A stretch of DNA of 64,000 bases from Leuconostoc fallax KCTC 3537 (GTDB taxonomy: Bacteria; Bacillota; Bacilli; Lactobacillales; Lactobacillaceae): assembly GCF_000165675.1 (NCBI RefSeq), contig NZ_AEIZ01000026.1:124001-188000 (forward strand). Direction: 5' to 3'. Below the pieces are notes generated by a model. It was not told where the DNA came from and did no database searches. It saw nothing but the letters and a program-made list of their open reading frames with translations. This document shows positions 541-4,073 of this stretch, in pieces. Position 1 is the first letter of the stretch; every line of letters starts with the position of its first letter. Position numbers and translations under genes: made by a program.

Positions 541-569
541 TTGACATAATATACTAATCATGTCATAAT
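541..569 (+). promoter_or_regulatory. Promoter of the leader peptide / ilvE operon
   Basis: A perfect -35 TTGACA lies at 541-546 and CATAAT at 564-569, with a 17-base spacer. Transcription would begin near 576, placing the Ile/Val leader ORF at the 5' end of the transcript. An overlapping alternative -10, TAATAT at 566-571, has a longer spacer. Confidence 0.75.
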
Positions 570-598
570 ATCGATACACTAACAAAAGGAATAATCTG

Positions 599-667
599 AT
601 GTCATATTTAAACGCTAACAATTTCACAGCAATTATTGTGGTCAACATTATTGTCATTATTATTTGA
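599..667 (+). CDS. Ile/Val-rich leader peptide (22 aa) of an attenuator
   Basis: This small ORF has a good ribosome binding site (AAAGGA, 585-590, 8 bases before the ATG). The first eleven residues are MSYLNANNFTA and the last eleven are IIVVNIIVIII, ending with TGA at 665-667. Ten of the last eleven codons are Ile (7) or Val (3). Such codon bias is the hallmark of ribosome-stalling leader peptides that sense charged branched-chain tRNAs. The ORF sits between a consensus promoter and a terminator, ahead of a transporter-like gene and a branched-chain aminotransferase. It probably acts in cis as a sensor; the peptide itself need have no function. Confidence 0.85.
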   Translation: MSYLNANNFTAIIVVNIIVIII

Positions 668-672
668 CAAAC

Positions 673-786
673 AGTGGTTGATCTATTTGCTTATGCAGCC
701 ACTCAAAAGGTAGTGGCTAGCATGTGCTGTTAATGTTTAAATGTGATTTAGACGTGCTAGTTATTAAAACTAGCGCGTTTTTATTT
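673..786 (+). promoter_or_regulatory. Branched-chain amino acid attenuator (alternative hairpins plus terminator)
   Basis: Five segments pair in a chain. Segment 1 (673-680) pairs with 2 (696-703), 8 bp. Segment 2 (693-703) pairs with 3 (712-723), 11 bp with bulged A719. Segment 3 (717-725) pairs with 4 (752-760), 9 bp. Segment 4 (752-762) pairs with 5 (768-778), 11 bp with one G-U, followed by TTTTT: an intrinsic terminator. A ribosome that finishes the leader would cover segment 1 and leave 2:3 plus 4:5 (termination). A ribosome stalled on the Ile/Val codons would leave segment 1 free, giving 1:2 plus 3:4 (read-through). The pairings are read from sequence; the mechanism is inferred from known attenuators. 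Confidence 0.8.
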
Positions 787-808
787 CTAAAAAATATGGG
801 AGAACAAT

Positions 809-2047: not shown

Positions 2048-3088
2048 ATGACATCAGCAAAAGTTAAACCAGAAGATTTTGATTGGAATGACCTAGGCTT
2101 TGCCTATCATGAATTACCTTATCGCTATCGTGCTTACTATAAAGATGGTAAGTGGTCTGCTGGCGCATTAGAGACTTCAGCTACAATTCCTGTTCACGAA
2201 GCTGCTACCGGCCTTCATTATGGTCAACAAATTTTTGAAGGATTAAAGGCATATCGTCGTCCTGATGGTGGTGTTAACCTTTTTAGACCTGATATGAACG
2301 CAGCACGGTTAAACCGTTCTGCCAAACGACTCATGATGGCTGAATTTCCTGAAGAACAATTTGTCGAAGCACTTAAGCAAGTTGTTCAAGCAAATGCTGA
2401 TTTCATACCACCTTACGGTAGTGGTGCCACGCTATACTTACGCCCCTTTATGATTGGTCAAGGCCCTGTTGTTGGTGTTCATCCTGCTTCAGAATACGTT
2501 TTCACTATTTTTGCAACACCTGTTGGTGCTTATTATAAAGGTGGCCTAACACCAACTGCTTATGTTACCAATGAATATGATCGTGCAGCCCATGGTGGTA
2601 CTGGTCAAGCTAAAGCTGGTGGTAATTATGCAGCTAGTATGTTGCCTGGACACGAAGCCCACAAAGCCGGATATTCTGATGTCGTTTATCTAGATCCTCG
2701 TCTTCATGAATTTATTGAAGAACTAGGCTCAGCTAACTTCTTTGGTATTACGAAAGATGGTCAATTCAAGACGCCAAAGTCACCCTCAATTTTGCCATCA
2801 GTAACAAAATACTCACTCTTAGCTTTAGCTGAAGAATTTGGTATGCAACCAGAAGAAACAGCAATTAGTATTAATGACTTGGATGAATTTGCTGAAGCTG
2901 GCGCAATGGGAACAGCCGCAGTTATCTCACCAGTTGGTTCTATCACCCATAATGGTGATAAGCACGTCTTCTATTCTGAAACAGAAGTGGGCCCACAGAC
3001 TCAAAAGTTATATGATCGTTTGGTCAGCATTCAGTTTGGCGAACAAGAAGGTCCTGAAGGCTGGACAGTTGATGTCCCATTAGATTAA
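2048..3088 (+). CDS. ilvE: Branched-chain amino acid aminotransferase
   Basis: The 346-residue protein is a class IV (fold type IV) PLP aminotransferase that interconverts Leu/Ile/Val and their 2-keto acids with glutamate/2-oxoglutarate. The PLP lysine is K189 in GGTGQAKAGGNYAAS, typical of IlvE. The N-terminal FEGLKAYRRPDG and C-terminal region LDEFAEAGAMGTAAVISPVG (substrate/phosphate loop) also fit. AGAGGA precedes the ATG. It is probably cotranscribed with the upstream membrane protein and so controlled by the Ile/Val attenuator. Length matches the family. Confidence 0.95.
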   Translation: MTSAKVKPEDFDWNDLGFAYHELPYRYRAYYKDGKWSAGALETSATIPVHEAATGLHYGQQIFEGLKAYRRPDGGVNLFRPDMNAARLNRSAKRLMMAEFPEEQFVEALKQVVQANADFIPPYGSGATLYLRPFMIGQGPVVGVHPASEYVFTIFATPVGAYYKGGLTPTAYVTNEYDRAAHGGTGQAKAGGNYAASMLPGHEAHKAGYSDVVYLDPRLHEFIEELGSANFFGITKDGQFKTPKSPSILPSVTKYSLLALAEEFGMQPEETAISINDLDEFAEAGAMGTAAVISPVGSITHNGDKHVFYSETEVGPQTQKLYDRLVSIQFGEQEGPEGWTVDVPLD

Positions 3089-3126: not shown

Positions 3127-3917
3127 ATGGTTTCTGGGATTTAATACAAAACAAGCACAATTAGTTAACGCCTTATATCAGGCCTATCTTAATAATGTAG
3201 CGTTAGATATGACCGATTGGCAAAATACGGTTGATAATTTTAATACCGGCTATCTCATACAAGATGCGCTACTAAAAAGAAAATGAACGTATCACCGGCT
3301 ATAAAGTATCATTAACAAGTGATACAACCCAACAAATGTTCAATACTAACGAACCATTGTATGGTCAACAAGTTGCTTCCAGAGTACTCACTCACCCCGC
3401 CAATGTTTCTTTAGATAATTTAAATGAACCATTAATTGAAGTTGAGCTCGTTTTCACAGCTAAGAAAACTTTAACAACAGACATGGATCTCGCAGAACTA
3501 TTACAGAACAGTTTTATGAGTGGTGGTATCGAAGTACCCGATGCGCGTTTTAAAGATTGGTTTCCGACTTTGAATAAATATCTAGTCGTTAGTGATGCAG
3601 CTGTGGGTGGTTACATTGTTAGTGGTATACAGGTTGATGGTAATACATTAACAGTAGCTGATTTAAAAGACATTCACGTTGATACTTATCATAATGGTGC
3701 GCTCATTGCGAGTGGTGATGCAACAGAAGTATTGGGCAATCCACTTCATGCTTTGCAATGGTTAGTTAAAAAGTTAGCTCAAACTTGCAAACAGATTAAC
3801 CCTGGAGATACCATATCCGCTGGAACATTTTTCGTACCACCAAAACTCGTTAAAGGTGAGTATGAGGCAAAGTTCAGTGGTCCACTCACTCAAACAACTA
3901 TTTTGCATGTTAAATAA
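3127..3917 (+). pseudogene. 2-keto-4-pentenoate hydratase-like gene, two frameshifts
   Basis: The 3' two thirds (3336-3917) read FNTNEPLYGQQVASR, DLAELLQNSFMSGGIEVPDA and NPLHALQWLVKKL, recognisable as the fumarylacetoacetate hydrolase / 2-keto-4-pentenoate hydratase fold. Upstream, ATG at 3127 opens MVSG and the continuation FNTKQAQLVNALYQAYL is in another frame. A second break near 3278-3286 separates it from NERITGYKVSLTSD. Both breaks are cured by removing one base (GGG to GG, an A run shortened by one), unlike the single-base losses elsewhere in this window. It may be a true pseudogene or an error. It follows ilvE by 38 bases; the substrate is unknown. Confidence 0.7.
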
Positions 3918-4001: not shown

Positions 4002-4073
4002 GGCTCGTTGGTCAAGTGGCTAAGACGCTGCCCTTTCACGGCGGAATCGAGAGTTCGATTCTCTCACGAGCTA
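4002..4073 (+). tRNA. tRNA-Glu (UUC)
   Basis: A full cloverleaf is visible: acceptor GGCTCGT (4002-4008) with ACGAGCT (4066-4072), anticodon loop CTTTCAC with anticodon TTC, T arm GAGAG/CTCTC with loop TTCGATT, and discriminator A4073. The 1:72 pair is G-U. The 3' CCA is not encoded (genomic CTA follows). It stands alone between its own promoter and a terminator. Confidence 0.93.

Follow-up and report, generated by a model that had tools for sequence, protein, structure and literature searches.

A probable isoleucine/valine leader-peptide attenuator upstream of an EIIC-like gene and ilvE in Leuconostoc fallax

The region 541-786 of the analysed DNA is best explained as a ribosome-mediated transcription attenuator. 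It would respond to charged tRNA-Ile and tRNA-Val and regulate an EIIC-like gene together with ilvE. We assign this reading a probability of about 0.93. The parts of the attenuator were read in the sequence, they are conserved among relatives, and the ribosome position selected between two mutually exclusive folds in silico; from these results we infer the regulation itself. The initial annotation had proposed an Ile/Val leader-peptide attenuator at this place, and the ribosome simulation, the conservation in eight genera, the covarying exclusive stems and the downstream ilvE gene all support it.

When isoleucine and valine are plentiful, the ribosome would reach the stop codon at 665 and cover segment 1, so that segment 2 would pair with segment 3 (2:3). 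With segment 3 occupied, the terminator 4:5 would form and halt transcription. When isoleucine or valine is short, the ribosome would stall in 632-661, where it would cover segment 0 and leave segment 1 free to form 1:2. Segment 3 would then be available to take segment 4, resulting in read-through by the RNA polymerase. In a leader that is left untranslated, or with a ribosome halted upstream of the run, segment 0 would capture segment 1, leading to 2:3 and to termination. Only a stall on the control codons would open the operon.

Promoter, leader ORF and RNA segments

The window, a stretch of 64,000 nucleotides (G000:C5:124001-188000), belongs to a genome of 1.64 Mb whose assembly is 91% complete. 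For comparison, 398 genomes of the family were used, among which this genome is the sole representative of its genus; the other genera are denoted by g-numbers. The nearest named relative found was Periweissella beninensis (Lactobacillaceae), which broadly fits the Leuconostoc and Weissella genomes put forward for comparison in the initial annotation. The features of the locus are listed in Table 1.

Table 1. Features of the probable attenuator and of the genes that follow it
Feature	Position	Strand	Remark
Extended -10 sigma-70 promoter, TTGACA-17-CATAAT	541-569	+	TTGACA at 541, CATAAT at 564-569, upstream TG, 11/12 consensus matches
Shine-Dalgarno sequence of the leader ORF, AAAAGGA	584-590	+	direct reading
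Leader peptide ORF, 22 codons, MSYLNANNFTAIIVVNIIVIII*	599-667	+	Ile/Val/Leu-rich leader at the equivalent place in 43 distinct orthologous loci
Segment 0 (Val-Asn-Ile codons)	640-649	+	10 bp helix with 673-683 when the RNA is exposed from 612 or from 627 on
Segment 1 (673-680 in the initial annotation)	673-683	+	pairs with segment 2, or with segment 0 when no ribosome covers segment 0
Segment 2	693-703	+	partner of segment 1 or 3; covariation in relatives
Segment 3	712-725	+	partner of segment 2, or of segment 4 (antiterminator)
Segment 4	752-762	+	5' arm of the terminator or antiterminator partner
Segment 5 (768-778) and T tract, intrinsic terminator	768-786	+	pairs with segment 4
First gene downstream (putatively regulated), membrane protein of the PTS_EIIC_2 family with 385 aa	809-1966	+	PF13303, E 1.2e-63
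Second gene downstream (putatively regulated), ilvE type II, branched-chain amino acid aminotransferase	2048-3088	+	PRK13357 473.9 bits (cut-off 307), TIGR01123 416.2 (cut-off 250)

The consensus promoter that had been claimed for this locus was found with 11 of 12 matches and a TG before the -10 element, and similar TTGACA / TG.CATAAT promoters precede leaders of relatives. Likewise, the 22-codon ORF with a good ribosome site and with ten Ile/Val codons and one Asn codon at its end could be read directly, the peptide ending in IIVVNIIVIII* (7 Ile, 3 Val and 1 Asn in the last eleven residues). When the own genome was searched for the leader pattern (Shine-Dalgarno sequence, ATG, Ile/Val run and stop), it occurred at this locus and at one other; the reversed control pattern gave 1 match.

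The calculated duplex energies were -10.5 kcal/mol for 1:2 (8 bp), -15.7 for 2:3, -14.1 for 3:4 and -15.4 for 4:5 (11 bp). All four helices of the chain described in the initial annotation are real, with 4:5 followed by the T tract. Its five segments stand, but the chain was incomplete since a sixth, segment 0 at 640-649, was missing. An additional long-range helix of 19 bp (601-620:728-747) joins the start of the leader ORF to the loop between segments 3 and 4 and closes the untranslated leader.

The EIIC-like protein was also searched against NCBIfam and against the sequences of the PDB, in both cases with no match. An AlphaFold2 model calculated from a four-sequence input was poor (mean pLDDT 47). 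Behind ilvE, at 3127-3917, a gene of the HpaH / 2-keto-4-pentenoate hydratase family is located that resembles 2-oxo-acid hydratases. Its N-terminal part lies in different frames, and the gene looks frameshifted, either as a pseudogene or by assembly errors.

Simulated choice of the fold by the ribosome position

The ribosome was represented by masking the RNA as far as 12 nt beyond the first A-site base. The remaining RNA was folded up to the end at 766, which lies before the 3' arm of the terminator, and partition-function profiles were calculated across the ribosome positions. With the A-site codon at 599-626 the probability of the antiterminator 3:4 was at most 0.12, and at 629 it was 0.40. 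For stalls at 632-659 (Ile, Ile, Val, Val, Asn, Ile, Ile, Val, Ile, Ile) it rose to 0.96-0.99, then fell to 0.49 with the last Ile codon in the A site and to 0.16 with the stop codon there. The geometry had been taken earlier to mean that a stall results in read-through and the completion of the peptide in termination, and in silico the ribosome position selects the fold as claimed. The low values at the early codons are explained by the helix 640-649:673-683, which takes segment 1 away from segment 2. Since segment 0 sequesters segment 1, transcription should terminate if the leader is not translated, and opening of the operon should require a stall on the run. The pairing of segment 0 may also explain why the run contains a single Asn codon.

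The shape of the profile was stable over footprint offsets of 9-17 and RNA ends of 766-770, with the stop codon no longer closing the switch at offset 9. When the RNA ended at 762, the antiterminator was only patchy, as too little RNA was yet available. In the complete RNA the terminator 4:5 dominated at every ribosome position with 0.98-0.99. Since the terminator always wins in the complete RNA, the switch must be kinetic with the choice made during transcription, as in other attenuators, and the equilibrium folding of a shortened RNA is a proxy only for this process. Shuffling of the linker rarely reproduced the stall-versus-stop switch of the window (p 0.07, 30 shuffles), and synonymous leaders rarely showed a stall-versus-early-codon effect as strong as that of the window (p 0.03, 30 trials).

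Other procedures were discarded. A greedy search for the duplexes of the chain was misled by the similarity of segments 1 and 3 and assigned wrong partners (p<0.05 in only 16/48), a metric that counted any pairing of the terminator arm was too loose, and the attempt to pick segment 3 automatically from individual minimum-energy folds failed at many loci of one genus.

Conservation in the family and rival explanations

A relative of the EIIC-like gene is present in 249 of the 398 family genomes, and about 115 EIIC loci were inspected for leaders. Including that of the window, 43 distinct orthologous genes follow a leader rich in Ile, Val and Leu, which in nearly all cases has a ribosome site. 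These loci span eight genera (the own genus, g2, g7, g16, g18, g19, g26 and g29), and in every leader examined an intrinsic terminator lies between the leader and the gene. Ile, Val or Leu occupies 69% of the last 11 positions of the 43 leaders, and at leaderless EIIC genes an ORF of this kind that also has a ribosome site was hardly ever found. In the EIIC tree, the leaders all fall within one clade of 47 rows (SH-aLRT 100). Its 4 leaderless rows comprise L063, where the contig breaks off upstream, and three genes of g11, in which the leader was lost. The g11 genes (L014, L015 and L016 in the genomes G378, G370 and G353) form leaderless EIIC-ilvE pairs inside the leader clade and are possibly transferred genes under another control.

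Covariation was analysed in an alignment of 19 sequences, consisting of 18 loci of g16 and the window. In the state 1:2+3:4, 94.4% of the cells were paired with 13 double-sided changes, and in the state 2:3+4:5, 97.0% were paired with 31 double-sided changes. For both states the covariation score was reached by none of 500 shuffles, which ignore relatedness, and slid controls were 25-52% paired. Compensatory changes were seen in 1:2, 2:3 and 4:5, whereas 3:4, paired in 98% of the cells, is nearly invariant and thus shows conservation but not compensatory change. In the comparison with relatives suggested in the initial annotation, a run of Ile, Val or Leu is kept in 43 orthologous loci, and the mutually exclusive folds covary. 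Of the four stems, 1:2, 2:3 and 4:5 showed covariation, and 3:4 was nearly invariant.

The ribosome simulation was then extended to 43 leaders, 40 with Ile/Val and 3 with Leu, from which near-identical ones were excluded. The mean stall-minus-stop difference in 3:4 was 0.44, compared to 0.13 with dinucleotide-shuffled linkers (Wilcoxon p ~1e-7, ignoring relatedness). The mean stall-minus-early difference was 0.38 versus 0.22 with synonymous leaders (Wilcoxon p ~1e-5, again ignoring relatedness), a modest excess for the gating by segment 0. The stall-minus-stop difference was at least 0.3 in 27/43 leaders and about zero or slightly negative in L057, L033 and L064. For stall-minus-early, 27/43 likewise reached at least 0.3; both differences did so in 20/43, and the others were weak to absent. 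Termination of the untranslated leader is predicted for the window and most of its relatives (27/43), but not for the remaining ones. With 27/43 for each measure and the others weak to absent, the form with six segments is not universal in the simulation model.

This bears on a variant of the main explanation, a plain attenuator of five segments in which segment 0 plays no role and an untranslated leader results in read-through. Several relatives (L029, L035 and L066) behaved in this way in the simulation, as the antiterminator also formed at early codons. In the window, however, RNA exposed from any early codon folds segment 0 onto segment 1 and keeps 3:4 low, and the gap between early codons and stalls exceeds that of synonymous leaders, as described above. 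We therefore regard the variant as unlikely for the window.

Attenuation by a translated leader was also weighed against explanations of another kind. The short ORF could encode a real small hydrophobic protein, such as a membrane or type I toxin-like peptide, with the hairpins serving as the terminator of its own transcript. The peptide is indeed short and hydrophobic and has its own promoter, ribosome site and terminator. However, the relatives have kept Ile, Val and Leu near the stop codon while the other parts of the peptide vary widely, and evolution has preserved two covarying folds of the RNA past the stop codon that exclude each other. The ORF also has a fixed place before the EIIC gene, whose paralogue has a Leu leader, and a small protein is in our view very improbable. 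Hardly any weight at all is given to a leader RNA that works without a translated ORF, either as a T-box or by sensing some other ligand or a protein. T-boxes are common in this genome, with about 20 including those of ileS, leuS and valS, but a search of the whole genome with RF00230 gave no match at the locus, and the Rfam scan of the window returned a tRNA at 4002-4073 as the one match above the gathering score. Moreover, the leader ORF and its control codons are conserved, and the choice of the fold follows the ribosome position.

The paralogue just mentioned (L005, G000:C5:106642-107700) is a PTS_EIIC_2 gene of the same genome with 47% identity and its own leader, MTNQYVRLNQTLLLNLLLI, followed by a terminator. 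This leucine leader, LLLNLLLI, is located about 230 nt upstream of the gene. The same ending, or LLLNLQLI or LLRNLLLI, was found in all 20 readable paralogue loci of the own genome, g16 and g19. The paralogue loci of g7 have a variant of this leader, and in those of g2 none was found. In two of the three simulated Leu leaders (L127 and L128), the antiterminator was on just at the Leu/Asn codons.

Known attenuators and the substrate of the EIIC-like proteins

Peptide attenuators for branched-chain amino acids (BCAA) are known from other Firmicutes. Rli60 of Listeria monocytogenes is a ribosome-mediated attenuator of ilv-leu (PMC5864092) and has, like the element of the window, a short BCAA-rich leader peptide and overlapping terminator and antiterminator hairpins. 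Mutants of Rli60 in the start codon or the ribosome-binding site super-attenuate (PMC5864092), which is consistent with the gating by segment 0 that is predicted here. Rli60 controls BCAA biosynthesis and is under CodY, whereas the targets here are the EIIC-like gene and ilvE in a genome in which CodY and IlvC were not found. The ilvD leader of Staphylococcus aureus has Ile and Leu codons ahead of a terminator, and a T-box was considered there and set aside (PMC5794164). In contrast to the window, this leader is dominated by Leu and belongs to a biosynthetic operon co-regulated by CodY. For Lactococcus, Corynebacterium and Streptococcus, BCAA peptide attenuators have been predicted according to work cited in PMC5794164.

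The his attenuator of Salmonella has an extra structure that permits antitermination only with the ribosome in the control codons (PMC1183508). It shares the chain of several segments with the element of the window, and its gating logic is the one predicted there for segment 0, but it differs in the amino acid, the sequence and the phylum, and the resemblance is mechanistic and not homology. Histidine leader peptides have also been described in Bacillus and further Firmicutes in which T-boxes are otherwise the rule (PMC2965389, PMC9413887); these too are peptide attenuators but, unlike the window, for histidine and with other genes. T-box riboswitches (RF00230) respond to the same class of signal, uncharged tRNA, which they sense directly; the genome uses them for ileS, leuS and valS, and the locus has no T-box match. 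The argument for novelty made in the initial annotation holds as far as these T-boxes are concerned, but it is weakened by the BCAA peptide attenuators already established in Listeria and S. aureus and predicted in Lactococcus. Since such attenuators are known in Listeria and S. aureus, the element of the window belongs to an established kind. In the open papers, subscription papers not being covered, we found no report of this element itself, and Rfam holds no family matching this leader.

CodY and the ketol-acid reductoisomerase IlvC were searched in the own genome (assembly 91% complete) and were not found, while BrnQ-family proteins gave three matches. The organism is thus likely to be auxotrophic for BCAA and to import them. 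In view of the three BrnQ-family matches, the idea that the EIIC protein is a simple replacement of BrnQ was rejected. The ilvE gene lies directly downstream of EIIC in 18/43 of the Ile/Val-leader loci and upstream in 4/43. It also lies upstream of EIIC in five leaderless loci (L110, L111, L113, L134 and L135), which supports a functional link independently of the leader and indicates that EIIC and ilvE were paired before the attenuator arose or irrespective of it. No T-boxes were found at the leaderless EIIC loci, either at the gathering score or at a permissive threshold.

By its membership in PTS_EIIC_2 (PF13303) the protein would count as a sugar PTS permease, but the BCAA attenuators and the ilvE context point elsewhere than to sugar transport via EIIA and EIIB. 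Because of the Ile/Val attenuator and the Leu-run switch on the paralogue, the EIIC-like proteins are probably transporters that serve the BCAA supply and not sugar PTS permeases. We see an even chance for the more specific proposal that the PTS_EIIC_2 proteins of this group are transporters of BCAA or of their 2-oxo acids instead of sugar permeases, with the two paralogues tuned separately by Ile/Val and by Leu through parallel peptide attenuators in organisms without CodY.

With this element, peptide attenuators found throughout a clade are added to a group of bacteria in which T-boxes would be expected as the regulators. Both systems occur in one genome: the genes of the Ile, Leu and Val tRNA synthetases have T-boxes, and transporter-like genes have peptide leaders. 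The main interest lies in the pairing of Ile/Val and Leu leaders on EIIC paralogues and in what it implies for their substrates. It gives a direct hint at what a large family of membrane proteins annotated as PTS EIIC may transport, and the substrate prediction made by the paired leaders could be checked by a simple uptake assay.
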